Both the position numbers and the translations under genes were made by a program. From NCBI GenBank assembly GCA_030650495.1, contig JAUSEB010000212.1, positions 1-32,395 of the forward strand: a stretch of DNA of 32,395 nucleotides. Reading direction: 5' to 3'. The notes below the pieces were generated by a model that saw only the letters and a list, made by a program, of their open reading frames with translations, was not told where the DNA came from and did no database searches. Source of the DNA: Armatimonadota bacterium (GTDB lineage Bacteria > Armatimonadota > UBA5829 > JAUSEB01). Shown here one piece after another: positions 1-28,284 of this stretch. Position 1 is the first letter of the stretch; each line of letters starts with the position of its first letter.

Positions 1-145
1 TGGTTGATAGTTGTCGGTTATGGAGTGTGGGCTTGACGCCGCTTTTCCCTCGACTCTTACGACTCACTTATCTGCGTTCTGAGATTTTCGTGTTTTCTAA
101 AATTTCGTGCTTTCGTGATTAGTACAAAGCTGGACGGATAAACGA
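1..145. other. Upstream region of the Hdr operon with degenerate short repeats
   Basis: This leader has no convincing gene. Positions 3-23 show a degenerate 7-bp period (GTTGATA, GTTGTCG, GTTATGG). TTTCGTG occurs three times, at 86-92, 103-109 and 111-117. A weak ribosome binding site (GGACGGA, about 132-138) precedes the ATG at 146. I see no strong sigma-70 promoter, and the true operon promoter may lie here or before the window. Confidence 0.4.
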
Positions 146-2746
146 ATGAGTGATTTTGCAAATAGAATAATTGATAGCAGAAGATGGATGCTGGATGGAT
201 GGGACGGCCTTCCGCCTCAGCATACCGACGAGGAAGGCGGCTGCGGCGTCACCGGATTTGCGTGCAGTATCCCGGTTAGCGGCCGGCATATCTATGAGCC
301 TTCTTACCAAATGCACAATCGTGGCAACGGCAAGGGTGGCGGGATTGCCTCAGTCGGGTTTGACCCGGCGCAGCTTGGCGTATCAAGGGAAATTCTTAAC
401 GACGACTATATGCTCCACATCGCGCTGCTGAATCATAAGGCGCGGAATCGGGTCGAGGCCGATTTCATTACTCCGATGTTCGATATTCACCACGCCGAAG
501 CGCTCGATCATATCGAAGACTTCCGTGACGTTGAGGGGTTGAAGGTTCGACCGCCGGACGTGCAGCGGTATTACGTGCGGGTGAAGCCGGATGTATTGAG
601 CAAATTCGCCGCTGAGCGCGGGTTGGAATTACTTCCTCAACGTGACATAGAAGACGAATTTATTTATCAAAACACATTTCAGCTTAACTCTAAGTATTAC
701 GCCTCCCTGGGTGAAAAGCAGGCGTTCGTGCTCTCCCATGGCCGCGACCAGATGATACTGAAGATCGTCGGTTACGCCGAGCAGATAGTCAATTACTACA
801 AATTGGAAGATTTCAAAGGGCACGTCTGGATTGCGCACCAGAGATATCCGACCAGGGGCCGCGTGTGGCATCCCGGCGGCGCGCACCCATTCTGTGGATT
901 GAACGAAGCGCTTGTGCATAACGGCGATTTTGCGAATTACTATTCCGTGAGTGAGTATTTAGCGCAAAGAAACGTCAAGCCGTTGTTCCTGACGGACACC
1001 GAGGTCTCGATTCTCGTATTCGACCTTTGGAACCGCGTTTATAAGTATCCGCTGGAGTATATAATCGAAGGACTTGCCCCGACCACGGAGCGCGACTTCG
1101 ATATGCTGCCTAAGGATAAGCAGGCGATATACAGAAAGATTCAGGCAAGCCACATACATGCGTCGCCTGACGGACCGTGGTTCTTCATCATCGCCAGAAA
1201 CGACATCGCGAATGACTCATTCCAACTGCTCGGAATCACTGATACAGCCATGCTCAGGCCGCAGGTGTTCGCGCTGCAAGACGGCGAAGTGCAAATCGGC
1301 TTAGTGTGCTCCGAGAAGCAGGCCATCGACGCTACCCTTCACAGCCTTGCCAAGGAAGACAGCCGCTTCTGCCCGATTGCCGATGATTATTGGAACGCGC
1401 GCGGCGGCAGCTACACCGACGGCGGGGCGTTCATCTTCAACGTAAAGCGCAACGACGATGGGACGCGTACGCTTAGCTGCCAGGACAAGTTTGGGCAATT
1501 GCGAAGCGTTAAACCAGGCAAGCGGGTTGATCTTTCTACTCCGATAGAGGTTTCGGGAACAAGTTCCCGAAACACCGACATCCTCACCGATGAGACCGGT
1601 TTTGCGCTGTTTGAAGCCGGTAAAAAAGCCGCTTTGAGCGAGAACCTTGCCGAGTTAAGGGCGATGTGCTCGGAGATTCCAGCCAAGGCTCAATCCGACA
1701 CCGAGCGGACGGCGGCTATCAATGGGCTAACTCTGCTGATCGACCGCAAGTATCCGGCGGGTGAGTATAAGCGATCTTCGGTTCTCCAAATATTGAGTGA
1801 TTGCTTAACCAGCGTGTTCGAGGCGATTCCACCAATTACCAATGAGCCATCCGGCAAGTACGCCAGGGTCGATTGGGAGACCAGAGACTCGATTCGAGCG
1901 CCCGCTGGTAATGAAGAAGTCCTGGTCGTCAACGCACACGATTTCCCGCCGGAGGATGACGATTGCGACTCGCGCTTGGTAGTTAAGGCTTATGGGCTTG
2001 GCTGGCGTAGGTTCATCTGCTATGGCTATGTCGGACAGAGATTTTTGGGCTGCGGATTCGGCGCTGAAACAGACGACGTTGTGATAGACGCTTACGGCAG
2101 TTCCGGTGACTATCTGGCTTCAGGGTTGGACGGAGCGACGGTTATCGTCCACGGCAACGCACAGGATCAGGTCGCGCAAATTCTCAAGCAAGGGATGCTC
2201 ATTGTTCATGGCGATGTCGGCCAGACCTTTATGTATGGCGCAAAAGGCGGCAGCGTGTTTATAAGAGGCAACGCCGCCGGGCGTCCGCTTATCAACGCCG
2301 TGGGGCGGCCAAAGGCCGTCATCAACGGCACATGCCTGGACTTTTTGGCAGAGTCGTTTATGGCAGGTGATCCTCTGAACGGAGGCGGATTTGTCATTCT
2401 GAACGGTATCCGGCAGGACGACGACGGCAACTGCATCGATCTTGAAACGCCGTATTCGGGATCGAATCTTTTCTCCCTTGCTTCAGGCGGCGCTATTTAT
2501 GTCCGCGATCCGCACAAACAGCTTGACAATGAGCAGCTTAACGGCGGCGCATTCTATGAGCTTTCCGAAGCCGACTGGCGGATCATTAAGCCATATCTTG
2601 AGGAAAACGAGAAGATGTTCGACATTCCGATTTCCCGGCTATTGACGGTGGACGGCAATCTCCGCGAGCCGGCGCAAGTCTACCGAAAAGTTGCCCCGGC
2701 AAAAAAGATTGCCACGATGGTAGCGGACGATGACGCGAACGACTGA
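146..2746 (+). CDS. Glutamate-synthase-like protein: class II glutamine amidotransferase fused to GXGXG domain, no FMN synthase domain
   Basis: This 866-residue protein joins the first and last domains of the glutamate synthase large subunit. Cys33 after Gly-Gly is the expected N-terminal nucleophile of a class II (Ntn) amidotransferase, with a 32-residue propeptide removed. The matching active-site segments are HQRYPTRG with AHPF near residue 230, HNGD near 256 and TDTE near 282. Residues about 610-765 form a GXGXG beta-helix with repeated Gly-rich turns. The central FMN/3Fe-4S synthase domain is absent; a linker of roughly 450-600 joins the halves. The likely activity is glutamine hydrolysis to glutamate and ammonia. 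It is the first gene of the operon, 10 bp before hdrC, so it probably works with the GltD-like part of HdrA. A palindrome at 1550-1573 codes for part of the linker. The domain call is firm; the role is inferred. Confidence 0.85.
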   Translation: MSDFANRIIDSRRWMLDGWDGLPPQHTDEEGGCGVTGFACSIPVSGRHIYEPSYQMHNRGNGKGGGIASVGFDPAQLGVSREILNDDYMLHIALLNHKARNRVEADFITPMFDIHHAEALDHIEDFRDVEGLKVRPPDVQRYYVRVKPDVLSKFAAERGLELLPQRDIEDEFIYQNTFQLNSKYYASLGEKQAFVLSHGRDQMILKIVGYAEQIVNYYKLEDFKGHVWIAHQRYPTRGRVWHPGGAHPFCGLNEALVHNGDFANYYSVSEYLAQRNVKPLFLTDTEVSILVFDLWNRVYKYPLEYIIEGLAPTTERDFDMLPKDKQAIYRKIQASHIHASPDGPWFFIIARNDIANDSFQLLGITDTAMLRPQVFALQDGEVQIGLVCSEKQAIDATLHSLAKEDSRFCPIADDYWNARGGSYTDGGAFIFNVKRNDDGTRTLSCQDKFGQLRSVKPGKRVDLSTPIEVSGTSSRNTDILTDETGFALFEAGKKAALSENLAELRAMCSEIPAKAQSDTERTAAINGLTLLIDRKYPAGEYKRSSVLQILSDCLTSVFEAIPPITNEPSGKYARVDWETRDSIRAPAGNEEVLVVNAHDFPPEDDDCDSRLVVKAYGLGWRRFICYGYVGQRFLGCGFGAETDDVVIDAYGSSGDYLASGLDGATVIVHGNAQDQVAQILKQGMLIVHGDVGQTFMYGAKGGSVFIRGNAAGRPLINAVGRPKAVINGTCLDFLAESFMAGDPLNGGGFVILNGIRQDDDGNCIDLETPYSGSNLFSLASGGAIYVRDPHKQLDNEQLNGGAFYELSEADWRIIKPYLEENEKMFDIPISRLLTVDGNLREPAQVYRKVAPAKKIATMVADDDAND
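1550..1573. repeat. 11-bp-arm palindrome inside a coding region
   Basis: GTTTCGGGAAC at 1550-1560 is followed, after two A residues, by its exact reverse complement at 1563-1573. It is read in frame as part of the linker between the amidotransferase and GXGXG domains, near residues 469-476. A repeat landing in a tolerant linker is the simplest reading. Confidence 0.7.
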
Positions 2747-2756
2747 GAGGACTTAG

Positions 2757-3317
2757 ATGAGTAACACAGCCCTTATAGATACAATTAACCGCGATCTTCT
2801 TATCGAGATCGACCCGGATGGGAAGCTGAATTTGACCGCTTGCCTGCAATGCGGCAGGTGCTCGTCGGGCTGCACGATGCGCCTTGAGACCGACATCCTT
2901 CCGCATCAACTCAATCGGATGGTCGCGCTTGGGATGAAGGATCAGCTTCTGGCAAGTAAGGCGATTTGGACCTGCGTCTCGTGCCAAACCTGCGTATCAC
3001 GCTGCCCGATGAATGTCGATACACCGGCTTTGATTGACAGGTTACGCGAAATAGCGAATTCGGCTCCCGGCGATCTTAATAAAGTAAAGATTTTCAACGA
3101 GACGTTCCTTGCTTCCGTCCGTCGATATGGGCGGGCGCATGAGTTCGGTCTGATGGCCGCATATAAGATGAAGACGCGGGACTTCTTTACGGATCTTGCC
3201 AAATTCCCGGCAATGCTCCTTAAAGGCAAGATGAAGATTCTCCCGCCCTTCACCAAAGGCCGGGCGGCGGTCGCCAAGATATTTGATAAAACGCTCCAGC
3301 AACGGGGGCCAAAGTGA
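2757..3317 (+). CDS. hdrC: Heterodisulfide reductase subunit C-like ferredoxin (HdrC)
   Basis: This 186-residue soluble protein has two four-Cys [4Fe-4S] motifs: Cys29/32/35/39 and Cys73/76/79/83, the second with the usual Pro after the last Cys. This is the HdrC pattern and length. HdrC passes electrons between the flavin subunit HdrA and the catalytic subunit HdrB. A good ribosome binding site (GAGAGGA) lies 6 bp before the ATG. The stop overlaps the start region of hdrB, which suggests translational coupling. The family assignment is secure; the electron partner here is unknown. Confidence 0.9.
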   Translation: MSNTALIDTINRDLLIEIDPDGKLNLTACLQCGRCSSGCTMRLETDILPHQLNRMVALGMKDQLLASKAIWTCVSCQTCVSRCPMNVDTPALIDRLREIANSAPGDLNKVKIFNETFLASVRRYGRAHEFGLMAAYKMKTRDFFTDLAKFPAMLLKGKMKILPPFTKGRAAVAKIFDKTLQQRGPK

Positions 3318-4174
3318 TGAAGTATTCGTTTTTCCCTGGATGCTCGTTGGAGTCCACGGCGCAGGATTTTCGCATGTCGACTTTTGCGGTCGCTGAGGCG
3401 CTGGGCGTTCAAATGGAAGAGTTACCCGATTGGACTTGCTGCGGCTCGTCCCCTGCTCACTCGACGGATGAAGTTCTTGCCGCCGCTCTTCCCGCGCGCA
3501 ACCTAGCGATTGCAAAAAGCCTGGAGCGGGATATGGTCGTCTGCTGCGCCGCTTGTTACAGCAGGCTGGCGAGCGCAAATCAGGCCTTGGCGGAGAATGA
3601 GAACCTGCGAATCGAAGTGGCGAAAGTCATCGGCCATGGATATGGCGGGTCGGTTAGAGTCCGGCACTTCCTTCAAGTCCTCCGTGATGATGTCGGACTG
3701 GCGGAAATAAAAGACCGGGTTACAAAAAGTTTAAGCGGCCTCAAGGTGGCTTGCTATTACGGCTGTCTGCTTACAAGGCCGAAAGAGTTAAGTATACTAG
3801 ACGACCCTGAAGACCCGCAAATGATGGAAGAACTGTTGATTGCAGCGGGAGCGGATCCCGTCGAATGGCCGTATAAGACCGAGTGCTGCGGCGCGAGCTT
3901 TTCCATAACGCGCACTGAAACAGTCAAGCGGCTTAGCGGCGAGATACTGCGTATGGCGAAGCAGAGCGGCGCGGAGTGTATCGCGGTAGCTTGTCCATTA
4001 TGCCAGACAAATCTTGATTTACGCCAGGCGGAAATCGAACAGGCATCCGGTGAGAAGTTCGAACTCCCAGTCTTTTATTTCACCCAGCTCCTTGGTCGAG
4101 CGATGGGACTATCCGATAACGCGCTTGGCATCGGCAAGCTGATGACCGACCCGGCGCGGGTTTTGGCGAGGTAG
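3317..4174 (+). CDS. hdrB: Heterodisulfide reductase subunit B-like protein (HdrB), CCG domains
   Basis: This protein of about 285 residues carries two CCG (Cys-rich) domains. The first has Cys-Cys-Gly near residue 42 and CCAAC near 76. The second has Cys-Cys-Gly near 192 and CPLC near 230. In HdrB these bind the noncubane [4Fe-4S] clusters that reduce a disulfide. The N-terminus KYSFFPGC is typical. I chose ATG 3317 over GTG 3314 because it lies 8 bp after a GGGGG ribosome binding site and gives the usual first residues. It shares the TGATG junction with hdrC. The substrate need not be CoM-S-S-CoB: bacteria with this subunit use other acceptors that are mostly undefined. Confidence 0.9.
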   Translation: MKYSFFPGCSLESTAQDFRMSTFAVAEALGVQMEELPDWTCCGSSPAHSTDEVLAAALPARNLAIAKSLERDMVVCCAACYSRLASANQALAENENLRIEVAKVIGHGYGGSVRVRHFLQVLRDDVGLAEIKDRVTKSLSGLKVACYYGCLLTRPKELSILDDPEDPQMMEELLIAAGADPVEWPYKTECCGASFSITRTETVKRLSGEILRMAKQSGAECIAVACPLCQTNLDLRQAEIEQASGEKFELPVFYFTQLLGRAMGLSDNALGIGKLMTDPARVLAR

Positions 4175-4180
4175 GCGGAA

Positions 4181-7100
4181 ATGAGCGTCAATAACGAACA
4201 AACGAATAATCCGATTGGAGCGGCGCTGGTGTGCGGCGGCGGTATCGCGGGCATACAGTCCGCGCTCGACCTCGCCAATTCCGGCTACAAGGTCTATCTA
4301 ATCGAGAAGTCGGCGTCCATCGGCGGCAAGATGGCGCAATTGGATAAGACTTTCCCGACCGGCGACTGCGCCACGTGTATCATCTCGCCTAAACTCGTCG
4401 AGTGCGTCCGCAATCTGAATATAGAGATTCTTACTCAATCACAGATCGAAGATATGACCGGCGAGCCTGGAAACTTCAAGGTGAAGATCAGGCAGAAGGC
4501 AAGATTTGTCGACATCGGCAAATGCAACTCCTGCGGCGACTGCGTAAAGGTCTGCCCCGTGCAAACACCTGACGTTTTCAACCGCGGCTTATCGACCACG
4601 ACGGCCATACATAAGGTTTCGGCGCAGGCTGCTCCGAACGCTTATGTCATCGCTAAGAAAGAACGCCCACCCTGCGTCTCGGCCTGTCCGATGGGCCAGA
4701 ACGCGCAGGCTTACGTCGCTCTTATAGCAAAAGGCAAATATGCCGAAGCTGCTGAGATAATCCGGCAGGACAATCCCCTGCCCCTCATCTGCGGCTATGT
4801 CTGCCACCGGCCTTGCGAAAGCGAATGCCAGCAGGGAAGATACGGCGAATCGGTGTCTATAAGAGATCTGAAGCGATTCGCCATTGAGAACGAACCAACT
4901 GCGCCAAAGACAGAGATGGCTGCGAAGCGTGAGGAGAAGGTCGCGATTATCGGCTCCGGTCCGGCGGGCCTCGGCGCGGCGGACTATCTTGCGCGAAAAG
5001 GCTACGGCGTTACGATGTTCGAAGCCTCGCCTGTTCCCGGCGGAATGATGCGGGCGGGAATACCAGATTTCCGGCTTCCACGCGAAGTTATTGACAACGA
5101 GATACAGCAAATCTTGGATTTGGGAGTTGAACTGAAAACCAGCTCCCCTATCGGTTCGTTTCTTACGCTCGACTGGCTGCTGCAAAACGGCTACAGCGCA
5201 GTGTTCGCCGCGGTCGGAGCGCAAAAAAGCTCCAGCCTGGGGATTGACGGGGAGAATCTCGACGGCGTTCGCCCCGGCATTGAGTTCATACGCAAGGTGA
5301 ACCTCGGCGAGCACGTTCAAATTGGCGCGAGAGTGGCCGTGATTGGCGCGGGCAACGCCGCAATGGATATAGCCCGCACGGCGATTCGGCTCGGCGCGAA
5401 GGAAGTCACCATCGTATATCGACGCACGAAAAAGGAAATGCCCGCCGATCCGGTGGAGGTCGAAGACGCCCTAGCCGAAGGCGTTAAATTCGTTTTTCTT
5501 ACCAATCCCAAACGGTTTGTCGGCAAGAACGGCAAACTCACGGGAATCGAGTGCCTGCGGATGAAGCTCTCTGACGATGTTGACGCATCGGGCCGAAGGC
5601 GGCCAGCGCCGGTCGAGAAGTCAGAGCATATTATCGAATGCGACGAAGCGATACTAGCCACCGGTCAGACTCCCGATATGGGATTTGCGACTGGGGCAAA
5701 TATCAGCGTCAACAAGTGGGGACTGTTAAAAGTCGATCCGGTCACTCTGGCAACCAACAAGCCCGGAGTGTTCGCTGGCGGCGATGTCGTCGCGGGAGCG
5801 GGAACTTTGAGCGAGGCAGTCGCGGCTGGCAAAAGAGCGGCTGAATCCATCGACAGGTTTATCAACGGCGAGAATTTAGCCGATGGCAGGTCAGCCGACC
5901 CGCGCGTTTGGACCGAAGAACAGCATCAGGAGTTAGAAAAGGTTCATTGGCGGGAGAAACGTCAGCGGAGCGCAAGAATCAAAGCAGAGCACGGCGCTAC
6001 TTACACCACAGAGCAGGCAGTAGCGGAAGCTGAGAGATGTCTTGCTTGCGGGATTTGCTGCGAATGTATGGAATGCGTGAAGGCTTGCCAGCCAAAGGCG
6101 ATTTTCCATGATATGCAGGACCAGACGCGCGAGCTTGAGGTCGGCGCGGTCATTCTTGCTCCCGGTTATGAGGAGTTCGACGCCCGGCTGCGCGGTGAAT
6201 TTGGCTTTGGCCGTTATCCGAACGTGGTCACAAACGTGCAATTTGAGAGGATGCTTTCGGCAAGCGGTCCGTTCGGAGGACATGTGCAGCGTCCGGCGGA
6301 CGGCGGCGAGCCAAAGAAGATCGCGTTCATCCAGTGTGTAGGCTCGCGCGACACGACAAATGGTAATCCGTATTGCTCGTCAGTCTGCTGCATGGCGGCA
6401 ATCAAGGAAGCTGTCATCGCCAAGGAGCACACGCCCGGTCTGGAAGCAACCATTTTTTACACCGATATACGCGCATTTGGAAAAGATTTCGACCGTTACT
6501 ATGAACGCGCAAAGGCCGGCGGCGTGAACTTCACCCGCAGCATGGTCTCCCGCGTTGTCGAGATGCCGGGGTCTAAGAATTTGCGGCTTTCTTATATCAA
6601 GGATGGCAAGCCTTTTGACGAAGAGTTTGACATAGTTGTGCTTTCCACCGGAATCCGTCCGAGTAAAGAAGCCATACGGACTGCCAAGGCGGTTGGCGTT
6701 GAATTGAGCGACTGCGGGTTCTGCAAGACGGACGAATTTGCGACAGTATCGGCGTCTCGTAATGGAGTATTCGTCGCGGGCGCGTTCCAAGAGCCAAAAG
6801 ACATCCCTGAAACCATTACTCAAGCCAGCGCGGCGGCGGCAATGGCAATGGAATTGCTTGCGCCCGCGCGAGGATCTCTTGCTGCTGAGAAGGTCTATCC
6901 TAAGGAACATGATTTCACCGATGCGCCGCCGAGGATTGGCGTGTTCGTCTGCCACTGTGGGATCAACATATCCTCAGTCGTGTATGTTGACCAGGTTGTC
7001 GAGGCCGCCAAAACTATGCCGGGTGTGGCCTTTGCTGAAAACCAGATTTACGCCTGCGCTGACAACACCCAAGAACGGTTGAAAGAGATCATCAAGGAGC

Positions 7101-8608
7101 ATAATCTGAACCGCCTTATCGTCGCTTCATGCTCTCCAAGAACTCACGAAGCGTTATTCAGAGAAACCGCGCGGGAGTGTGGGCTGAATCCCTATTTAGT
7201 CGATATGGCAAATATACGCGATCAATGCTCGTGGGTGCACTCGAACAACCGCGAAGCCGCTACGGAGAAGGCGATTGACCTCGTGCGGATGGCGGTAGGC
7301 AGGACTGCAAGATTGGCTTCATTGACGACCGAAGAGCTTCCCGTCGCGCAGTCAGCGTTGATACTAGGCGGAGGCCCCAGCGGGATTGCGGCGGCGTTGT
7401 CGCTTGCGAACCAGGGTTATCGAACACATTTGGTCGAAAAGGCAGCGCAATTGGGCGGACGGCTGAGCGCCGGAACGCTTCGAGATAAGATGACGGCTGA
7501 TGTGACTAACCACCCGCTGATCTCGGTCTATCTCTCTTCACAGCTTGCGGCGCTACAAGGGCACGTCGGCAACTTCACAAGTGAGATCAAGACTACTGCC
7601 GGAACTAAGACCGTGACTCATGGAGCGATTGTGATCGCAACCGGCGGCGTCGAGCATAAGCCGAACGAATATCTATATGGCCAGGATTCGCGTGTAATGA
7701 CTCAGCGTGAATTAGAAGCCAAATTCGCGGCAGATTCGGTTGACTTGCCTAAGAACGCGGTCGTTGCAATGATTCAGTGCGTCGGCTCGCGGAACGAAGA
7801 AAGGCCTTTCTGCTCACGCTCTTGCTGTACGGACGCGGTGAAGAACGCAATTCGTGTTAAAGAACTGCGCCCTGATGCGAACGTGGTCGTGCTATACCGC
7901 GATATGCGGACCTACGGGACTAACGAGCTTTATTATCAGAAAGCGCGTGAGCTTGGCGTGATGTTCTTCAGATATGAGCAGGAGGAACCGCCACAAGTTA
8001 TCGGCGGCGAGTCTCCGACGCTAAAGTTTTTCGATCATGACCTCGGCCTGCAAATGGAGTTGAAGCCGGACTTGCTGGTCCTATCAACGGGAACATCGCC
8101 TGCGTTGGATAATCAGGCTGTTTCCGAACTGGCGAAGATACCATTGAACAACGACGGCTTCTTCTTGGAAGCGCATGTGAAGCTCAGGCCGGTGGATTTC
8201 GCCTCGGAAGGCATTTTCCTTTGCGGAAGCGCTCACTCGCCCAAGGGAACCGCTGAGAATATTCAGCAGGGCCGGGCGGCGGCTGGCCGGGCGGCCACCA
8301 TTTTGAGCAAAAAGAGTATGATCGTCGGCGGGCAGGTGAGCAAGGTGGACATTCGCAAATGCGTGTCTTGTCTTACCTGCGTGAAGGTCTGCCCTTACGG
8401 CGCTCCTGAGATTAGTCCGAATAACGGCAAGAACCGGGTGGAGATTCAGGCGGCGAAGTGCATGGGCTGCGGAAGCTGCGCGGCGGAATGCCCGGCGAAG
8501 GCAATTCAATTGCAGCATTTCATGGACGCGCAGGTTGCAGCTGCAATCGAAGCTTTGTTGGAAGATATAACTGTCAGCTGTCAGCTGACAGCTGACAGTT
8601 TGGAGTAA
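4181..8608 (+). CDS. hdrA: Giant HdrA: two HdrA flavoprotein units with an inserted GltD/NfnB-like NAD(P)H oxidoreductase module
   Basis: This protein has 1475 residues, far longer than ordinary HdrA. Residues 15-43 are an FAD dinucleotide-binding fold. Cys63/66 and nearby residues match the HdrA Cys-rich motif, and 115-125 begins a ferredoxin motif. Residues about 160-608 are a GltD-like insertion: Cys165, 169, 204, 208, 212 and 216, FAD site GSGPAG near 258-263, and a second nucleotide site GAGNAA near 389-394 for NAD(P)H. HdrA sequence resumes with a Cys cluster at 620-636. Residues 916-1385 form a second HdrA copy, starting with the CHCG motif and with another FAD site at 1062-1068. Two [4Fe-4S] motifs close the protein (Cys1394-1404 and 1427-1437). 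I infer that NAD(P)H electrons enter the Hdr complex through the insertion, with flavin-based bifurcation possible. The last 12 or so residues are encoded by a palindromic repeat. Confidence 0.9.
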   Translation: MSVNNEQTNNPIGAALVCGGGIAGIQSALDLANSGYKVYLIEKSASIGGKMAQLDKTFPTGDCATCIISPKLVECVRNLNIEILTQSQIEDMTGEPGNFKVKIRQKARFVDIGKCNSCGDCVKVCPVQTPDVFNRGLSTTTAIHKVSAQAAPNAYVIAKKERPPCVSACPMGQNAQAYVALIAKGKYAEAAEIIRQDNPLPLICGYVCHRPCESECQQGRYGESVSIRDLKRFAIENEPTAPKTEMAAKREEKVAIIGSGPAGLGAADYLARKGYGVTMFEASPVPGGMMRAGIPDFRLPREVIDNEIQQILDLGVELKTSSPIGSFLTLDWLLQNGYSAVFAAVGAQKSSSLGIDGENLDGVRPGIEFIRKVNLGEHVQIGARVAVIGAGNAAMDIARTAIRLGAKEVTIVYRRTKKEMPADPVEVEDALAEGVKFVFLTNPKRFVGKNGKLTGIECLRMKLSDDVDASGRRRPAPVEKSEHIIECDEAILATGQTPDMGFATGANISVNKWGLLKVDPVTLATNKPGVFAGGDVVAGAGTLSEAVAAGKRAAESIDRFINGENLADGRSADPRVWTEEQHQELEKVHWREKRQRSARIKAEHGATYTTEQAVAEAERCLACGICCECMECVKACQPKAIFHDMQDQTRELEVGAVILAPGYEEFDARLRGEFGFGRYPNVVTNVQFERMLSASGPFGGHVQRPADGGEPKKIAFIQCVGSRDTTNGNPYCSSVCCMAAIKEAVIAKEHTPGLEATIFYTDIRAFGKDFDRYYERAKAGGVNFTRSMVSRVVEMPGSKNLRLSYIKDGKPFDEEFDIVVLSTGIRPSKEAIRTAKAVGVELSDCGFCKTDEFATVSASRNGVFVAGAFQEPKDIPETITQASAAAAMAMELLAPARGSLAAEKVYPKEHDFTDAPPRIGVFVCHCGINISSVVYVDQVVEAAKTMPGVAFAENQIYACADNTQERLKEIIKEHNLNRLIVASCSPRTHEALFRETARECGLNPYLVDMANIRDQCSWVHSNNREAATEKAIDLVRMAVGRTARLASLTTEELPVAQSALILGGGPSGIAAALSLANQGYRTHLVEKAAQLGGRLSAGTLRDKMTADVTNHPLISVYLSSQLAALQGHVGNFTSEIKTTAGTKTVTHGAIVIATGGVEHKPNEYLYGQDSRVMTQRELEAKFAADSVDLPKNAVVAMIQCVGSRNEERPFCSRSCCTDAVKNAIRVKELRPDANVVVLYRDMRTYGTNELYYQKARELGVMFFRYEQEEPPQVIGGESPTLKFFDHDLGLQMELKPDLLVLSTGTSPALDNQAVSELAKIPLNNDGFFLEAHVKLRPVDFASEGIFLCGSAHSPKGTAENIQQGRAAAGRAATILSKKSMIVGGQVSKVDIRKCVSCLTCVKVCPYGAPEISPNNGKNRVEIQAAKCMGCGSCAAECPAKAIQLQHFMDAQVAAAIEALLEDITVSCQLTADSLE
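8569..8600. repeat. 32-bp perfect palindrome with 7-bp period, coding for the HdrA C-terminus
   Basis: The sequence is its own reverse complement over 32 bp and steps in heptamers (TCAGCTG, TCAGCTG, ACAGCTG). It is translated as the last residues of HdrA and ends 2 bp before the GGAG ribosome binding site of the mvhD-like gene. A near-identical 34-bp copy lies at 28236-28269. It could form an RNA hairpin next to that site. Confidence 0.9.
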
Positions 8609-8613
8609 ATACG

Positions 8614-9054
8614 ATGACATTCGAACCTAAAATACTCGCGCTGTGCTGCCATTATTGCGCTTACGCCGCTGCCGACTTGGCGGGATCAATGCGGCTGCAA
8701 TATCCGCCGAATATCCGCGTACTGCGATTGCCCTGCACCGGCAAGGTTGACACGGGTTACATCCTACGCGCTTTTGAGAAGGGCATAGACGGAGTAATTG
8801 TCGCCGGATGTCTGGAAGGCGGATGCCATTTCCAGGAAGGCAATTTGCGCGCGAAGAAGCGCGTGACGCTGGTCCGCGAGCTAATGTCCGAGGCCGGCGT
8901 CGAGCAGGAACGGCTTGAGATGTTCAACCTGTCATCGGCGCAGGGGCAGACGTTCTCGGATATAGTCGAGATGATGACCAAGAGAATTAAAGAACTCGGA
9001 CCCAGCCCATTGCGGAAAGAAGTTAAGAGGGTCCCGGAGGAGATAGCAAGATGA
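8614..9054 (+). CDS. mvhD: MvhD-like hydrogenase iron-sulfur (delta) subunit
   Basis: This 146-residue protein matches the MvhD/FrhD-type family that binds a [2Fe-2S] cluster and links HdrA to its electron donor. Visible Cys residues sit in LCCHYCAY near the start, in LPCTGKVD near residue 37, and in GCLEGGCHF near 65. Family members sit on HdrA and receive electrons from a hydrogenase, formate dehydrogenase or other partner. No hydrogenase gene is in the window. The ATG follows GGAG by 8 bp, and the end overlaps metV by four bases (ATGA). Short length and cysteine spacing make the call reliable; the donor is unknown. Confidence 0.88.
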   Translation: MTFEPKILALCCHYCAYAAADLAGSMRLQYPPNIRVLRLPCTGKVDTGYILRAFEKGIDGVIVAGCLEGGCHFQEGNLRAKKRVTLVRELMSEAGVEQERLEMFNLSSAQGQTFSDIVEMMTKRIKELGPSPLRKEVKRVPEEIAR

Positions 9055-9737
9055 TAGTCGCTCATCGCAAGAACATACAGGATTTGAAGTCGGCCCTGGC
9101 CGAATATAAGAAAATACTCGTGCTCGGTTGCGGAACGTGCATGACCGTTTGCCTGGCTGGTGGCGAGCGGGAGGTCGGGATGATAAGCTCCGCGCTGCGC
9201 ATCGCCTATCGGGTGGACGGGCAGGAGCATGAACTTATCGAAGCGACCATCGAACGCCAGTGCGAGAACCAGTTTATGGAGGACATCCTGCCGCTGGTTC
9301 AGGAAGCCGATGCGATTCTTTCGCTTGGTTGCGGCGCGGGTGTTCAGGCGATGGCTGAGCGATATCCGAACAAGCCTATCTATCCCGGCGTTGACACCAA
9401 GTTCATCGGTATTCTACAGGAACAGGGCATTTGGACCGAAAAGTGCGCCGCATGCGGCAAATGCATCATCGGCGCTTATGGGACCGTCTGCCCGATAACT
9501 AGATGCTCCAAGCAACTAACCGAAGGTCCATGCGGCGGCGCGCGCGACGGTAAGTGCGAAGTCTCCCCCGAAATCGAATGCGGCTGGCAGCTTATCTACA
9601 ACCGGCTAAAGGCTTTAGGTCAGCTTGACCTCTTGCTGGAACCGGCCCCGCTGACCGACTGGTCAAAAAGCCACGAAGGCGGCTGTAGAAAGATCGTGCG
9701 AGAAGATCAGAGGATAAGGAACCCGGCTGGGGGATAG
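9051..9737 (+). CDS. metV: MetV-like protein (methylenetetrahydrofolate reductase C-terminal / zinc-FeS domain)
   Basis: This 228-residue protein matches the MTHFR_C family. It has an N-terminal Cys27/30/34 motif and a Cys-rich C-terminal part with CAACGKC near 135-141 and the GPCGGARDGKC signature near 165-175. In acetogens MetV pairs with the flavoprotein MetF to form methylene-tetrahydrofolate reductase, and with HdrABC-MvhD a larger complex. Here metF is absent from the window, so MetV may act as an iron-sulfur adaptor or pair with a distant MetF. GGAGGAG lies 8 bp before the ATG. The TAG stop is the first codon-sized unit of a heptamer array (9735-9769), so the true end may have been changed by the repeat. 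Confidence 0.85.
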   Translation: MIVAHRKNIQDLKSALAEYKKILVLGCGTCMTVCLAGGEREVGMISSALRIAYRVDGQEHELIEATIERQCENQFMEDILPLVQEADAILSLGCGAGVQAMAERYPNKPIYPGVDTKFIGILQEQGIWTEKCAACGKCIIGAYGTVCPITRCSKQLTEGPCGGARDGKCEVSPEIECGWQLIYNRLKALGQLDLLLEPAPLTDWSKSHEGGCRKIVREDQRIRNPAGG

Positions 9738-10833: not shown

Positions 10834-12984
10834 TCAGCGCAGGAGCCGCGTTGAATTGGCAATTACGCAAAGGCTGCTTATGAACATCGCTGTAGCCGCT
10901 ATAAGCGGATGTACGAATCCAAAGAACGCAAGAGCGACGGCGATTGAATTATAGCCGAACGCCCACCACAAGTTCTGCTTGATTATCCGATAGGTCAGCT
11001 TCGATAAGTCCAACACCCACGGGATGCGGGACAGGTCATCGCCAAGCAGTATCACATCGCTCGATTCCCGCGCGAGATCGGAGCCACCGCCAATTGCGAT
11101 CCCGACGGAAGCCTCCGCAAGAGCAGCCGCGTCGTTAATGCCGTCACCCACCATTGCCACGGCGGTTCCATTAGACTCGCGCGCCTTTTTGACCACGGCG
11201 GCTTTCTCATCGGGTGCACATTCGGCAAATACATCATCAATATTCAGTTCGCGAGCTAATCGGTATGTGGGTCCCTTTAGATCTCCCGACAAAACAGCCG
11301 GTTTTACGCCGGCTGCCGTCAGCAATTCGATGGCAGCAATAGCTTCCGGGCGGATACTGTCTTGCAGTGAAATAGCGGCCTTGACGGCGCCGTCCCATCC
11401 AATATATATTACCGATAATGGGTCGGATTCTTCAGCGACAGTAAACGATTCCGGCGCTGAATGTCCCTCAGATAATAGTTTTAGCGAACCCACTGCGACC
11501 TGCTTTGTTTCCCCATTTATTGCGACTGTCCCTATTACTCCCTGGCCGGGAATAGCGCGGAAGCCGGTGACATTTCCTATTGGAAGACCGAGCGCTCGAG
11601 CTTCAGCCACAATGGCGTTTGCTATTGCGTGCTCACTTCCGGCTTCGACAGCCGCCGCCCATGCAATGGCTTCGTCTGCGGTAATGTCGTCTGAGGCCAG
11701 CATAACTTTTGCTATTGTCAAGCGATTGTCGGTGAGGGAGCCGGTCTTGTCGAAGAATATTCTTTTGATTGCGGGCAGGCGTTCGAGTATCTCTCCAGAA
11801 CGGATTAACACGCCGGAATGTGCGGCCTTTCCTATTGCGAGACATGTCGCCATTGGCGTTGCCAGACCAAGAGCGCATGGGCACGAAACCACCAGCACGG
11901 CCAAAGCGCATAGGCCGGCCCGCTCCCAGTTGCCAATAATACCGCCCCAATATACCGCCGCTCCCGCGGATAGAAGCCAGACCAGCGGTACAAATACGGA
12001 TGCGACACGCCCCGCCAGTCTCTCGATTGGAGCGTAGTTCTCCTGCGCTTGAAGAACCATTTTCCGTATCTGCTCGACCATTGAGTCAGCGCCTACAGCC
12101 GCTGCCTCTACAGTGATATAGCCGTCGCAGTTCACGCTGGAGCCATAGACCCTGTCGCCGGGAGAGCATGAACGCGGCCTGGATTCTCCGGTAAAAGAGG
12201 ATTCCTCGACAAGACAACTGCCGGATATAATCAGGCCATCAGCGGGGATGCGCTCACCGGGTTTCACAATCAGTAGGTCGCCTATGCGCACATCTTGAGA
12301 TGAAATATCTTCTTCTCGCCCGTCACGAAGAACCCGCGCCATATCAGGGGTCAATTCGATCATCTCACGGATTGCCTTGGATGTCCGGTTTTTGGAAATT
12401 GCTTCCAGAAGCCGTCCAAGAGTCACTATGAAAAGAAGCATAGTGGCGGTGTCAAAATACACATGACCAGAGCCATATAACACGTTCGCGGCGCTTACGA
12501 AAAACGCCGCGAATGAGCCGGTCACTATGAGCGCGTCCGTGCTTATCCTGCCATACCGCAACTCCCTGGCCGCTGCCACGAGAAATGAGAATCCCAAGAT
12601 GATCATTGCCGGAGTGGACAGCGCAAGCATAGCCCACCTCATAGCGTGAATCGCGGATGCGCCAAGAGCGCCGGGCGATTGCGTGTATAAGATAATGCTA
12701 ATCATCATAACGTTCATGGATAGAAACGCGCCGACACCGAGCCTGAGCGTTATCCATGCGGCAACTCCGTCTCCACCTTGAGAGCCGATGATTTGCTGGA
12801 CGAGATAGCAGCCATAACAGCAGAAGCGGCGCTCGTCGTCCGGGGAGTAGCCTTTGCCGGTGAAAATCAATCCGCAATAGTCGCAGGAGTGATGAGTGCT
12901 GAGCGCTGAGAGATGAGTGCTGAGTGATGAGTGCTGAGCGCTGAGTGATGAGTGCTGAGTGATGAGTGATGAGTGATGAGTCAT
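10834..12984 (-). CDS. ccoI: Copper-translocating P-type ATPase, CcoI/FixI-like, with a repeat-encoded N-terminus
   Basis: This 716-residue P1B-type ATPase has the Cys-rich N-terminal domain of CcoI/FixI proteins (CDYCG at 34 and CCYGC near 54) but no HMA domain. CPC in the membrane lies near residue 366, the phosphorylated Asp in DKTGS near 409 (Ser where Thr is usual), and GDGIND near 611. CcoI-type pumps export copper for insertion into cbb3 oxidase, which is encoded nearby. Residues 1-33 ([14 protein letters not shown] and similar heptads) are translated from a 13-unit 7-bp repeat array, and the only usable start codon (12984) lies at its edge. Start and upstream stop overlap as ATGA. AGGA about 4 bp before the ATG is a weak site. 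Confidence 0.9.
12891..12981. repeat. Heptamer array, 13 units of GATGAGT/GCTGAGT type
   Basis: Exactly thirteen consecutive 7-bp units fill 91 bp, mostly GATGAGT, GCTGAGT and GCTGAGC. Because 7 is not a multiple of 3, the reading frame repeats every 21 bp, giving a seven-residue repeat in the ATPase. It contains the stop region of the four-helix-bundle gene and abuts the ATPase start. Confidence 0.95.
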
Positions 12985-13358
12985 GGCTTCCTGAGTTTCT
13001 TCTCTATAGATATTCTTAGTCCACCAAGTATGCGACCAACTTCTTCCGCTTGAGCCAAAAGCTTCTCAGTAGTAGACTTATCAAGATAGCCTACATCCAT
13101 AGCGATGTAAATCTGTGCACGTACTTCTGCGCAAGAGCTTTTCGCGATTGAGATGAATTGGTGGAATTCGCCTGGTCTCATGCGTTCAAATCCTTCAGCG
13201 ATGTTGGACATAATCGACACAGAAGCTCGTTGTAACTGCCCAGACAACCCAAAATCCCTTGCAAACGCGCCTATACGGGTTACTCTATAAATTTCGCGTG
13301 TCAACTCCCTAGCCTTCTGCCAGGCGATCAAGTCTTCAAATCTCTCAATTCTGCTCAA
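12981..13358 (-). CDS. Four-helix-bundle protein (23S rRNA intervening-sequence / TIGR02436 family)
   Basis: This 125-residue all-helical protein has the family signature: [18 protein letters not shown] near the start, then [23 protein letters not shown] near residues 38-60. It is related to proteins encoded in 23S rRNA intervening sequences and to the Avd accessory protein; the function of most members is unknown. The start is TTG 13358 with AAGGAG 8 bp upstream, and that site is partly made by a heptamer unit. The stop overlaps the ATPase start (ATGA). The gene is flanked on both sides by inverted heptamer arrays and separates two genes that suit a copper/oxidase operon, so it looks like an inserted cassette. 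Confidence 0.88.
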
Positions 13359-13370
13359 TCTCTTTTCTCC

Positions 13371-13433
13371 TTACTCAGCGCTCCTTACTCAGCGCTCGTT
13401 ACTCAGCACTCGTTACTCAGCACTCGTTACTCA
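13371..13433. repeat. Heptamer array, 9 units (14-bp dimer repeat), inverse of the array at 12891
   Basis: The units alternate TTACTCA with GCGCTCC, GCGCTCG or GCACTCG, 63 bp in all. Read on the minus strand it gives TGAGTAA and CGAGTGC, related to the TGAGTGC units of the other array in opposite orientation. The stop codon of the safE-like gene (13433-13431) is in the last unit, and the ribosome binding site of the four-helix-bundle gene is in the first. Confidence 0.95.
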
Positions 13434-14147
13434 TCGCTGTTCTTCCCCACAACACGATGGTACGCAGCGATTGACGTTGTGGGGCGTTAGCATTACCCCT
13501 GTTACACGTCCTATAGTTAGAAGTCCAATTGCAACAACAACAATCCCTGCTGCGCGCATTCCCATCTTTGCGAACTTACGGTCTAAACCGACGCCGAATA
13601 GTCCCAACGCGAGCAATCCTGGAGCCGTGCCTAAGCCAACCCCTGCCATCAGAGCCATTCCTTGCGGCGCATTATGCGAAGCGGCTGAAATGGCGAGCAT
13701 TCCCATTGGAAGCGGACAGGGAAGAAATCCAACTCCAAGTCCAAGAAGGAACGCGGCAATTGGACCAGGCTCGGTTAGCAACCCGCCTAATATATTCCTA
13801 ATCAGTCCGGCTTCGGAGATTCCCTGGAGCGGTTTGAAAGACGGCAGCCTAATTCCCAACATAACAAGACCGAATATAACCGTGATGAATCCGGCGGCAA
13901 ATCTAAGGACGGGCGCTCCTAGAGCAAAGGCGGTGTTTTTGAATAGTATCGCGCCAAGGGCTGAGACAAGTGTTCCGAGAAATATGTAAGTGAAGGTCTT
14001 GCCGATTACAAAGAGAATTTGGCGCAAAATGACCGATCCCCGATTCGATGACTTTGCAAGATGCAGTGGAAATCCGCCGCACATGCCAAGGCAGTGGGGC
14101 GTCGCGGCGAAACCTGCGATTAATCCCATCAGGAACATAGACCACAT
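13431..14147 (-). CDS. SafE/TauE-like (DsbD_2, COG2836) membrane protein, cbb3 oxidase maturation context
   Basis: This 238-residue protein has about six membrane segments. It opens with the family motif HCLGMCGG (residues 18-25) in the first helix and ends with a Cys-rich tail (CVPSCCG). COG2836 proteins are commonly encoded beside ccoI or other cbb3 genes and are thought to help transport metal or thiol reductant. I infer a role in copper handling for the oxidase encoded 7 kb away. ATG 14147 follows GGGTGAG at good spacing. The stop is in a heptamer array, so the tail could have been altered by it. It is probably the first gene of the safE, four-helix, ccoI unit. Confidence 0.82.
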   Translation of the reverse strand: MWSMFLMGLIAGFAATPHCLGMCGGFPLHLAKSSNRGSVILRQILFVIGKTFTYIFLGTLVSALGAILFKNTAFALGAPVLRFAAGFITVIFGLVMLGIRLPSFKPLQGISEAGLIRNILGGLLTEPGPIAAFLLGLGVGFLPCPLPMGMLAISAASHNAPQGMALMAGVGLGTAPGLLALGLFGVGLDRKFAKMGMRAAGIVVVAIGLLTIGRVTGVMLTPHNVNRCVPSCCGEEQR

Positions 14148-14486: not shown

Positions 14487-17381
14487 GTGCGTCTCACCCG
14501 TCGAGAGTTCCTGCAAGGTATGGGGATCACGGTCAGTGGATTCGGCATAATGTCGCTGGGCTATGACCGCCTGGTTCCCTTTATTCACCAACCTGATGAT
14601 TTGATCCCCGGCGTTTCGACCTGGTACGCCACGAGCTGCCGCGAATGCCCCGCCGGATGCGCGATGGTCGTGCGTAATCGGGAAGCGCATGTAGTAAAGT
14701 GTGAAGGCAACCCCAAACATCCAGTAAGCCGTGGGACTCTCTGCGCCAGGGGACAGGCCGCTTTGCACGGTTTGTACGACCCCGACCGGATCAAGGGGCC
14801 GCTTCGAAAGAACAATTCCGGTGAATTCGACTCGGTGAAGTGGGAAGACGCCTTGGACGCCGTTGGAAAGCTCCTTGCAAAGCAACCTCGTATAGCGATT
14901 ATATCCGATCTTCAGACAGGCTCTCTCGATGCGTTGATGCGGACATGGCTTGGCGCATTTGGGTCAAATCGGCTGGTTGTTTATGAACCGATCAATTATG
15001 AGAAAGTTAAGCACGCTTCTGGTGGGATCGTTCCATCTTTCAATATAGCCGAAAGCGATTATCTGATCTCATTTGCGGCGGATTTTCTTGAGACGTGGAT
15101 ATCCCCTATCGAGTTCGCCCATCAGTTCGCCGCGATGCGCGAGATTAAGAATGGAAAACGCGCCCGGTTCGTGTATGTTGGGCCGAGAGTTTCGATGACC
15201 GCCGCAAATGCCGACGAGCGGATTATTGTCCCGCTGGACGCTGTGGCTGATATTGCTCAAACCATTGCGTCATTGAACGGTATGGCAACTGCGGCCCCTT
15301 CTAAACCCATAGAATCAGTTGCCCGCAAATACAACATCAGTGTTGATGACACTCATCGTATTGCGAATAGAGCGGCCGAGGCCCACACGCTTGTGTTGCC
15401 GGGGACAGATGAGCGGATCGCTGCCGCTGCAATGTCGATCAATGTGAACCGAAAAATATCTATGGTGGATTATTCTCGTCCGCATGCCGTGACAAACATC
15501 GCTTCTAAAATCGAAATGGTGAACCTGATAGCTGACCTCGATAACGGCAAGATTGATATTCTAATCATACATGGCGCAAACCCTGTATATGCGCTCCCAG
15601 AATCCGCACGGTTTGTTGAGGCGCTCAAGAAGGTCAAAACGGTCATTAGTCTTTCAAGCTATATGGACGAGACAACTGCTCTTGCAGACTTTGTATTGCC
15701 GTCCAATACGCCGTTGGAATCCTGGGGAGACTATCAGCCATATCCCGATGTAGCTAATTTGATGCAGCCGACGATGGGGACGTTGTTCGACACAAGGCAG
15801 ACCGGCGATATTCTTATAGAATTGGCAAGACGCACCGAACAAGATTCAAAGACCATTTTCAAAGCGGAGAATTTCTATGATTATCTGAGGCTTAGGTGGG
15901 GCGCGCCGGTGTCGGAGAAAGATGACGCTGCGGCGGCTCAATGGGAAGCAATGCTGCGTATTGGCGGCAAATGGCCCGGTTCCGAATCCGCAGGAACCGC
16001 CACGCCGTCCACAGGGTATCAGGTCGGATTTGAACAAGCGCCCACAGTGAAAGCTGCCGCTGTTCCCGCGAAAACGCCTGTTGTCGCTGAAACAGCAATG
16101 CTTCCAATCAAGACTTTGGATATTGCGCGTCCTGAACAAAAGGATGAGATCCGACTTTGGGCATATCCCAGCCTTTATTTATTTGACGGTCGTGGCGCGA
16201 ATCGCCGATGGCTTCAAGAAATGCCGGAGCCAATCGTTAAGGGAGCGTGGGATTCCTGGGCCGAGATAAATCCTATTACCGCGAAGAAGTTGGGAATCGA
16301 AACGAACGATGTCATCGAAGTATCCCATAATGGCGCAAGTATTCGCGTGTCCGCGTTCGTGTGGGAGGGCATAGCCCCGGACACAATCGGGATTCCAATG
16401 GGACAAGGACACACGCATTATGGCCGATACGCGGAAGGCATCGGCGTAAACGTACTGCCATTATTGAGTGTTGATAATCCCAATATCAAAGTCAGAAAAA
16501 CGGGTGAGAAAAAGCGAATAACGCGATGGAAGGGCGATGACGGGCAATATGGCCGCGAGATTGTGAAGACTGCCGCGCTTGGCGGTATGGCTGCTCATCG
16601 GGAAGTCACACTTCCCCTACCCCAGGGCTACAAATTCAACGATTTCTATCCAGGCCATGAGCACAAGAGTCCAGGAGAAAAGCTCGATGACTACCGCTGG
16701 GCGATGGTTATTGACGAGAACCGCTGCATTGGCTGCCATGCCTGCTCGGTGGCATGTTACGCTGAGAACAACATCGGAATCGTAGGCGCGGATGGAATTC
16801 GGCGAAACCGCGAAATGGCTTGGCTGAGAATTGACCGTTATATCGATTGGAAAGAATCTTCCGCGCCGATACTATTCCAGCCGATGCTCTGCCAGCATTG
16901 CGATTCGGCTCCATGCGAGTCAGTGTGCCCGGTTTATGCGTCTTATCACACCGAAGACGGATTAAACGCGCAAATCTATAACCGCTGCGTCGGTACTCGC
17001 TATTGCTCGAACAACTGCCCGTATAAAGTGCGCCGTTTCAATTGGTTCGATTATAAATGGCCGGAGCCGCTTAATTATCAGTTAAACCCGGATGTGACGG
17101 TCCGCGGCCGAGGCGTGATGGAGAAATGCACTCTCTGCGTCCAGCGGATTCGCCAGGCGAGAATCGTTGCGCGCAGGGAAGGCCGGCGAATACGAGACGG
17201 CGAGATCATGCCCGCGTGCGCTCAGACTTGCCCGACCGGGGTGTTTACTTTCGGCGATTTGAAAGACCCGGAGTCGCGGGTTTCAAAGCTGATACGCAAT
17301 GATCCGAGAGCGTATCAGGTTTTGCATGAGCTAAATACAAAACCGGCTGTGATATATCTTAGGCGTGTTATAGAAAGGTAA
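14487..17381 (+). CDS. actB: ActB: molybdopterin-oxidoreductase-like / iron-sulfur fusion subunit of Alternative Complex III
   Basis: This 964-residue protein has a twin-Arg-like N-terminus (TRREFLQ, residues 4-10) with a hydrophobic stretch, consistent with Tat export. Cys51/54/58/86 would bind the first [4Fe-4S] cluster of the molybdopterin-oxidoreductase fold, spanning to about 710. A disordered Ala/Pro-rich linker lies near 500-545. Residues about 742-915 are a PsrB/NrfC-type ferredoxin with four Cys groups (CIGCHAC, CQHCDSAPC, CVGTRYC, CTLC). ActB relatives in ACIII carry iron-sulfur clusters but no molybdenum cofactor. GTG 14487 follows AAAGGA by 9 bp. ACIII oxidises menaquinol and reduces c-type cytochromes. 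The neighbours ActC, ActD, ActF and ActA make the complex assignment strong. Confidence 0.9.
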   Translation: MRLTRREFLQGMGITVSGFGIMSLGYDRLVPFIHQPDDLIPGVSTWYATSCRECPAGCAMVVRNREAHVVKCEGNPKHPVSRGTLCARGQAALHGLYDPDRIKGPLRKNNSGEFDSVKWEDALDAVGKLLAKQPRIAIISDLQTGSLDALMRTWLGAFGSNRLVVYEPINYEKVKHASGGIVPSFNIAESDYLISFAADFLETWISPIEFAHQFAAMREIKNGKRARFVYVGPRVSMTAANADERIIVPLDAVADIAQTIASLNGMATAAPSKPIESVARKYNISVDDTHRIANRAAEAHTLVLPGTDERIAAAAMSINVNRKISMVDYSRPHAVTNIASKIEMVNLIADLDNGKIDILIIHGANPVYALPESARFVEALKKVKTVISLSSYMDETTALADFVLPSNTPLESWGDYQPYPDVANLMQPTMGTLFDTRQTGDILIELARRTEQDSKTIFKAENFYDYLRLRWGAPVSEKDDAAAAQWEAMLRIGGKWPGSESAGTATPSTGYQVGFEQAPTVKAAAVPAKTPVVAETAMLPIKTLDIARPEQKDEIRLWAYPSLYLFDGRGANRRWLQEMPEPIVKGAWDSWAEINPITAKKLGIETNDVIEVSHNGASIRVSAFVWEGIAPDTIGIPMGQGHTHYGRYAEGIGVNVLPLLSVDNPNIKVRKTGEKKRITRWKGDDGQYGREIVKTAALGGMAAHREVTLPLPQGYKFNDFYPGHEHKSPGEKLDDYRWAMVIDENRCIGCHACSVACYAENNIGIVGADGIRRNREMAWLRIDRYIDWKESSAPILFQPMLCQHCDSAPCESVCPVYASYHTEDGLNAQIYNRCVGTRYCSNNCPYKVRRFNWFDYKWPEPLNYQLNPDVTVRGRGVMEKCTLCVQRIRQARIVARREGRRIRDGEIMPACAQTCPTGVFTFGDLKDPESRVSKLIRNDPRAYQVLHELNTKPAVIYLRRVIER

Positions 17382-17419
17382 CTGTTCAGGGATGCGGAGA
17401 TTATTCACCCTCACCCTAA

Positions 17420-17487
17420 CCCTCTCCCGTCAAGGGAGAGGGAGTTTGGCGCCTTCGGCGCCAGCTTCGGCAGCAGGCTACCGAAGC
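17420..17487. repeat. Three consecutive hairpins between actB and actC (REP-like)
   Basis: CCCTCTCCC/GGGAGAGGG (17420-17442, 5-base loop) is followed by GGCGCC-TTC-GGCGCC (17448-17462) and GCTTCGG/CCGAAGC (17464-17487, 10-base loop). They fill the 166-bp gap inside the operon without a T-tract. They are more likely REP-type mRNA-stabilising or differential-expression elements than a full terminator. Confidence 0.85.
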
Positions 17488-17547
17488 AACAGACCTGGCG
17501 TGATGTATACAAGGCGGATTGTGGAGAAGCCCTGACGAGGAGAAGCC

Positions 17548-21089: not shown

Positions 21090-21100
21090 TCGAGGTAACA

Positions 21101-23768: not shown

Positions 23769-23778
23769 GGAGAGGTAG

Positions 23779-27411: not shown

Positions 27412-27412
27412 T

Positions 27413-28216: not shown

Positions 28217-28235
28217 AACACTCCTTTCAGTATAT

Positions 28236-28269
28236 AAGCTGTCAGCTGTCAGCTGACAGCTGACAGCTT
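28236..28269. repeat. 34-bp perfect palindrome with 7-bp period
   Basis: The sequence equals its own reverse complement and has the same heptamer core (GTCAGCT, TGACAGC) as the palindrome at 8569. It fills the space between the two minus-strand genes, 20 bp before the ATG of the sugar-isomerase gene, where a hairpin could affect its expression. Confidence 0.92.
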
Positions 28270-28284
28270 TTGCCTTCTCGAAAC

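Follow-up and report, generated by a model that had tools for sequence, protein, structure and literature searches.

What is the function of an operon in which a glutamine amidotransferase is encoded beside Hdr, MvhD and MetV subunits? The question is raised by contig JAUSEB010000212.1 of an Armatimonadota bacterium (JAUSEB01; assembly GCA_030650495.1), positions 1-32,395 of which, read on the forward strand, constitute the window, i.e. the whole stretch of 32,395 nucleotides that was analyzed. A first-pass annotation had described a six-gene operon in the window, with GltB and GltD likeness, and had suggested that NAD(P)H input and glutamine-derived ammonia could be brought together in one assembly. 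Six intact co-directional ORFs were confirmed, separated by +10, -4, +6, +5 and -4 bp, and profile matches agreed with the family proposed for each. The relevant features are as follows.

1-145, + strand: leader between gltB2 (on contig C154) and ORF1, at the contig edge; mvhD2, metF, gltX and gltB2 lie outside the window
146-2746, + strand: ORF1, 866 aa, class-II glutamine amidotransferase plus GXGXG beta-helix domain (profile matches, motifs, AlphaFold2 model)
242-244, + strand: Cys33 codon, candidate N-terminal nucleophile, invariant in two alignments
2757-3317, + strand: HdrC-like subunit with two four-cysteine [4Fe-4S] motifs
3314-4174, + strand: HdrB-like subunit with two complete CCG (non-cubane cluster) motifs (TIGR03288, E = 2e-61)
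4181-8608, + strand: HdrA of the Moorella type or type III, 1475 aa (profile matches, motifs)
4616-6010, + strand: GltD-like insert in HdrA with Fe-S cysteines, FAD motif GSGPAG and NAD(P)H motif GAGNAA
8614-9054, + strand: MvhD/FlpD [2Fe-2S] electron-transfer subunit (E = 1e-48)
9051-9737, + strand: MetV-like subunit (DUF5981, Cys-rich; MetV C-terminal family, E = 2e-34)

Position 146 is not the beginning of the operon; rather, the contig begins just before it, and four more genes (mvhD2, metF, gltX and gltB2) could be placed upstream from another contig in the MAG, C154, and from nine relatives in the same phylum. C154 overlaps positions 1 to ~350 of the window at ~95% identity and carries, on its minus strand, gltB2 (433-2016), gltX (1965-3347) and a truncated metF (3351-4073). 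The ~5% difference within the overlap marks a strain variant, and for this genome the join is thus strongly supported by the relatives rather than proven. One relative carries the ten-gene operon free of gaps. In all nine of these the order of the gene block was kept, with HdrC and HdrB homologues downstream and ORF1 identities of 59-81%, and the block is therefore far beyond chance. Judged by sequence, the six window genes form the back half of a conserved operon, mvhD2-metF-gltX-gltB2-ORF1-hdrC-hdrB-hdrA(gltD)-mvhD-metV. The six-gene description was thus sound as to co-occurrence but incomplete at its upstream end.

The fold of the ORF1 model gave glutamate synthase large chains as the top PDB matches, and resembled GlmS and PurF besides GltB. 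Its GXGXG domain matched PF01493 (E = 9e-14), and its class-II amidotransferase domain fell just under the Pfam GATase_6 cut-off (26.5 versus 27 bits); a variable linker of ~170 residues separates the two. Alignment of 28 ORF1-family sequences revealed conservation of Cys33 and of the motifs NRGNGKGGG, HQR-PT, HNGDFAN and LTDTE, and Cys33 is predicted to act as the N-terminal nucleophile once a leader of ~32 residues has been removed. ORF1 is accordingly the glutaminase and GXGXG portion of a split glutamate synthase. Kinship of the GXGXG domain with FwdC of formylmethanofuran dehydrogenase was considered and rejected, since the whole-protein fold is that of glutamate synthase and an FMN synthase subunit adjoins. 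No relatives were detected when a viral collection was scanned with the ORF1 alignment.

That FMN synthase subunit, not visible in the window and so missing from the first-pass picture of glutamine-derived ammonia, is predicted to be GltB2. In C154 and the relatives GltB2 matched PF01645 at ~2e-91, and over an alignment of ~310 residues with Azospirillum GltB it retained KPGxGG, SPxPxHxxYSxED, GGTGAxP and the Fe-S cysteines. GltX, by comparison with GltB2, retained the FMN-type barrel and most of the Fe-S cysteines but lacked the block forming the 2-oxoglutarate site. It is assigned as a degenerate FMN-synthase paralogue and treated as putatively non-catalytic; a role as a second active synthase was rejected on this ground. 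Every part of glutamate synthase is present, namely glutaminase, FMN/2-oxoglutarate synthase domain, GXGXG domain and GltD-type input, and GltX, GltB2 and ORF1 together are assigned as a complete split enzyme of predicted activity. A family search found no further glutamate synthase in the window genome, and no other strong Glu_synthase gene was found in 8 of 10 genomes tested.

The remaining window genes encode HdrC, HdrB, HdrA(GltD), MvhD and MetV in one operon, the set known from the Moorella type. In HdrA, the two HdrA halves surround the GltD insert and are joined by a second thioredoxin-reductase-like domain and a C-terminal dicluster ferredoxin domain. The insert (NF009410, 528 bits) spans residues of about 146-650, or ~146-610 by another delimitation, and its NAD(P)H motif is consistent with the input that had been proposed. 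At three loci HdrA lacked the insert and a NuoF-type NADH subunit was encoded nearby, which implies that NAD(P)H input is retained there through a substitute subunit. When the NADP motif was surveyed by regular expression in distant HdrA inserts, the pattern proved too strict to be informative beyond the window's clade. The flavin domains of HdrA and the two non-cubane cluster motifs of HdrB resemble those of electron-bifurcating Hdr complexes. Bifurcation by the assembly is possible.

The operon family was encoded by at least 524 stretches in one genome collection. All 54 loci that allowed a test, drawn from about ten bacterial phyla, had the gltX-gltB2-ORF1 core unchanged. By contrast, what accompanies the core differs by lineage: HdrCBA(GltD)-MvhD-MetV, Hdr with NuoF, MetVF-MvhD, or a GlcD-like flavoprotein. 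In the first-pass annotation, the joint role had been made to depend on the amidotransferase gene not being usually elsewhere in close homologues. Linkage to Hdr was indeed complete in the window's phylum (9/9), but among loci with enough downstream sequence Hdr lay next to ORF1 in only 14 of 42, so that elsewhere the core functions in the absence of Hdr. Recurrent neighbors of the core belong to nitrogen assimilation: glnA was found nearby in 14 loci (~1 expected), and amtB, glnK, carAB and purF were also observed.

MetF provides a further indication of function. In the MetF encoded on C154, Arg replaces Asp120 and His replaces Gln183 (E. coli numbering), the N-terminus, including position 28, being cut off; the intact partner of the Moorella type (Glu28, Asp120, Gln183) was thus not observed here. 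Asp120 was lost in 18 of 20 MetF proteins without an adjacent MetV, whereas all 20 that had one retained it (Fisher p = 3e-9, a value that overstates independence, the residue states being phylogenetically clustered). An Asp120Asn substitution leaves 0.3% of kcat (PMC11094777). Two other MetF proteins in the window genome have Asp120 intact. The MetF of the operon in this lineage is therefore unlikely still to be a folate enzyme, and may serve as a structural or electron-carrying part. An acetogenic methyl branch for this genome was rejected, because a search of it for acetyl-CoA synthase was negative and Asp120 of MetF is lost.

In view of the loss of the folate-binding Asp, we read the assembly as a putative NAD(P)H-driven glutamate synthase rather than a methylene-THF reductase, and consider it likely that the operon encodes a glutamate synthase in which the usual GltD reductase is replaced by a Moorella-type Hdr/MvhD/MetV module. 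The presence of an ELFV-family (glutamate) dehydrogenase in all ten genomes tested counts against this reading. The sequences themselves show a conserved gene set, glutaminase and synthase domains whose motifs are intact, a module for NAD(P)H and altered residues in MetF; from these we infer the physical assembly, the direction of electron flow, any bifurcation and the supply of GltB2 by the GltD insert. Hydride from NAD(P)H would enter at the FAD of the GltD domain within HdrA, and electrons would pass from HdrA via MvhD to the Fe-S clusters of GltX/GltB2 and on to the FMN of GltB2. Glutamine would be hydrolyzed by ORF1 and the ammonia channeled to GltB2, where it would combine with 2-oxoglutarate prior to reduction to glutamate. 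HdrB/HdrC and the second HdrA flavin would leave room for a second acceptor, either disulfide or ferredoxin. A flavin-based electron-bifurcating glutamate synthase, in which exergonic glutamate formation is the high-potential branch, HdrA reduces ferredoxin or disulfide from NAD(P)H, and the same core is coupled to methyl-THF oxidation in MetV-retaining relatives, is a rather doubtful elaboration; if true, nitrogen assimilation would help conserve energy.

A Moorella-type methylene-THF reductase (MetVF-HdrABC-MvhD) for one-carbon metabolism, with the glutamate synthase genes merely co-operonic, would account for the full subunit set, upstream MetF included, for the catalytic residues kept by MetF in MetV-adjacent loci and for the second, intact MetVF encoded behind Hdr at loci L084 and L116. 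We regard it as unlikely: the MetF here bears the Arg and His substitutions, acetyl-CoA synthase was not found in the window genome, and it is glutamate synthase that stays constant across loci, whereas Hdr and MetF do not. Methyl-THF could instead be the donor in MetV-retaining lineages, with MetVF oxidizing it and MvhD passing electrons to GltX/GltB2, the window's lineage having switched to NAD(P)H via HdrA(GltD). This proposal extends the preferred one to relatives, and both can hold together. Potentials of about -0.20 V for methyl-THF and about -0.12 V for glutamate would allow it; in many loci MvhD-MetV-MetF lies directly upstream of gltX and the MetF residues are unaltered, and the GlcD-like flavoprotein that takes the place of MetF in another clade would be expected of an interchangeable donor. 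It concerns the relatives rather than the window, however, its direction is not readable from sequence, and we hold it only tentatively.

The three-domain set is common to glutamate synthase and N-methylglutamate synthase, and the amidotransferase-FMN pair might make a product other than glutamate, such as N-methylglutamate. This is very improbable, as the recurrent annotated neighbors include glnA, amtB and glnK, with no methylamine-pathway genes seen among them, and the operon encodes the sole glutamate synthase found in the window genome.

Ammonia enters biomass mainly through glutamate synthase, which usually draws electrons from NAD(P)H via GltD, or from ferredoxin. The operon family described here combines a constant glutamate-synthase core with an exchangeable electron-input module; should these components assemble into a single enzyme, many uncultured anaerobes would have their nitrogen assimilation wired to one-carbon metabolism or electron bifurcation. 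Since the window genome has the module and acetyl-CoA synthase was not detected in it, acetogenesis should not be deduced from MetF, MetV and Hdr genes in genomes of this kind.

The Hdr half is already known. In Moorella thermoacetica, the HdrCBA-MvhD-MetVF methylene-THF reductase is encoded in one operon, its HdrA having an inserted GltD and an extra thioredoxin-reductase-like domain (PMC9430772). HdrC, HdrB, the HdrA(GltD) domain plan, MvhD and MetV are the same here; MetF, by contrast, is encoded apart from them, upstream, and in this lineage no longer has the folate-binding Asp, and a complete glutamate synthase is added. Fusion of HdrA to a GltD-type module is also described, in the portions of the sources consulted, for type III HdrA of archaea (PMC12054007) and for HdrL of Desulfobacterium autotrophicum, which adjoins MvhD (PMC2702500), but those portions describe no amidotransferase or FMN synthase subunit alongside. 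As a combination the operon is apparently undescribed, no paper on it having been found in the open-licence literature, in keeping with its initial description as an unfamiliar mix. The chemistry predicted is that of NADPH-dependent GltBD (Azospirillum 1ea0/6s6s, B. subtilis 7mfm), whose large chain is matched by ORF1 plus GltB2 in fold and active-site motifs; GltBD, however, consists of one large chain and GltD, without Hdr, MvhD or Met subunits. In the split, archaeal-type enzyme (GltB1/GltB2/GltB3 plus GltD), glutaminase, FMN synthase and GXGXG parts are likewise not in one large chain, the FMN subunit also has a ferredoxin-like domain, and a GltD-type reductase is available. Here, by contrast, glutaminase and GXGXG are fused (866 aa), a degenerate GltX invariably accompanies them, GltD is embedded within HdrA, and MetF, MetV, two MvhD and HdrBC are encoded in the operon.

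The row of six genes proposed by the first-pass annotation at window positions 146-9737 was borne out: six intact open reading frames run in one direction with spacings of +10, -4, +6, +5 and -4 bp, and the families named from sequence were each confirmed by Pfam and NCBIfam as GXGXG (ORF1), HdrC, HdrB, HdrA with a GltD-like insert, FlpD/MvhD and a MetV-type domain. The class-II amidotransferase match of ORF1, in the same protein as GXGXG, was weak in these databases. HdrB retains both non-cubane cluster cysteine motifs. The nearest solved structures were methanogen HdrA chains for HdrA and NfnA/GltD-type chains for its insert, in which an FAD motif and the NAD(P)H motif GAGNAA are present.

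ORF1 starts 145 bp into the contig, and the window holds only part of the operon. A second contig of the same assembly, C154, matches the first ~350 bases of the window at ~95% identity and carries, upstream, gltB2 (encoding an FMN synthase subunit with an N-terminal ferredoxin domain), gltX (encoding a shorter, degenerate paralogue) and a truncated metF. Because the overlap differs by ~5%, C154 was regarded as a strain variant. Such identity between this contig (locus L062) and window 1-350 suggests that two strains were binned in one MAG, for which 5.8% contamination is listed. The metF-gltX-gltB2 order recurs in nine relatives from the same phylum, mostly after a second mvhD-like gene, with the operon running off the contig or fetched stretch in some. 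Among the matches listed, the closest relative with a name is an Armatimonadota MAG, whose ORF1 is 81% identical.

In the PDB, the AlphaFold2 model of ORF1 (pLDDT 80) matched glutamate synthase large chains best, and the nucleophile Cys33 and accompanying amidotransferase motifs are conserved in 28 sequences. GltB2 aligned over ~310 residues with the Azospirillum glutamate synthase large chain and retains the substrate, FMN and Fe-S motifs, most of them invariant in 21 diverse sequences. Therefore, ORF1 and GltB2 contain between them every catalytic part of a glutamate synthase large chain. The window genome yielded no further strong glutamate synthase gene. The GltX model (pLDDT 77, poor in the N-terminal third) retains an FMN-type barrel and lacks the 2-oxoglutarate-site block; its cysteines suggest a role in electron transfer.

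A scan with the ORF1 alignment returned at least 524 encoding stretches. The best 80 loci, as labelled in their records, came from Desulfobacterota and Syntrophales, Planctomycetes, Chloroflexi, Nitrospirae, Acidobacteria, Actinobacteria and others. Both gltB2 and gltX were present wherever upstream sequence sufficed (54/54). Of the 47 loci whose upstream sequence reached farther, 41 had an MvhD-like gene, 29 MetF, 21 MetV and 6 a GlcD-like FAD/Fe-S protein; Hdr was found in 14 of the 42 loci with enough downstream sequence. In 14 loci (~1 expected) the fetched flanks included glutamine synthetase, and amtB, glnK, carAB and purF also recurred. In the GlcD-type loci, which form one group in the ORF1 tree, the place of MvhD/MetV/MetF before the glutamate synthase core is taken by a GlcD-like FAD-linked dehydrogenase that also has a ferredoxin domain (L106:5037-6884; similarly L071, L076, L130, L131 and L139). 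Loci with MetF and no MetV occupy at least two places in the tree. L084 and L116 (Syntrophorhabdaceae/Deltaproteobacteria) each carry two MetV-MetF pairs, one before the glutamate synthase core and one after Hdr, an arrangement resembling two fused operons.

In three loci HdrA lacks the GltD insert, and a gene for a NuoF-type NADH-binding protein lies near it, adjoining HdrA in L039 and L087:

L039:12294-14042, NuoF-type protein
L087:15082-16995, NuoF-type protein
L121:3-1934, NuoF-type protein

That the NAD(P)H module has apparently been replaced here speaks for NAD(P)H as the donor of electrons to the Hdr-bearing form.

On alignment with E. coli MetF, Asp120 was retained in 20/20 operon MetFs with adjoining MetV and lost (to Arg, Lys, Tyr, His, Thr or Ala) in 18/20 without it; the counts are not independent, given the clustering of these labels in the tree. 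In the operon MetF of the window genome, positions 120 and 183 are Arg and His; of the published MetF variants, Asp120Asn retains 0.3% and Gln183Ala 13% of kcat (PMC11094777). Two further MetF genes in this genome have intact Glu28, Asp120 and Gln183. The genome also encodes one formyl-THF synthetase and an ELFV-family dehydrogenase, and acetyl-CoA synthase was not detected in it.

Elsewhere the window carries the following:

10834-12984 (-), 13431-14147 (-) and 14487-24855 (+), copper-type P-ATPase and DsbD-like genes beside genes for a molybdopterin/Fe-S protein, NrfD, COX1 and FixO/cytochrome c
12981-13358 (-), PF05635 (23S rRNA intervening sequence protein family), with no relation to the operon
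25936-29274 (-) and 29452-31197 (+), sulfatase and GFO/IDH/MocA-type oxidoreductase genes, then a DNA methylase gene

The P-ATPase-to-FixO region looks like an alternative complex III with a terminal oxidase, which makes it probable that the organism is able to respire; by this NrfD/molybdopterin-type and COX1/FixO respiratory cluster it differs from a strict acetogen.

The gene set and motifs of the operon are established, and they read best as a glutamate synthase with a Moorella-type Hdr module (HdrCBA(GltD)-MvhD-MetV) as its reductase; physical assembly, the direction of electron flow and any bifurcation are inferred, and bifurcation, if demonstrated, would amount to a novel form of energy coupling. 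In the parts of the open-access literature searched, neither an amidotransferase nor an FMN synthase subunit was described as joined to such a module. The constituent systems are known, and what appears to be new is the combination of glutamate synthase with the Moorella-type Hdr module.
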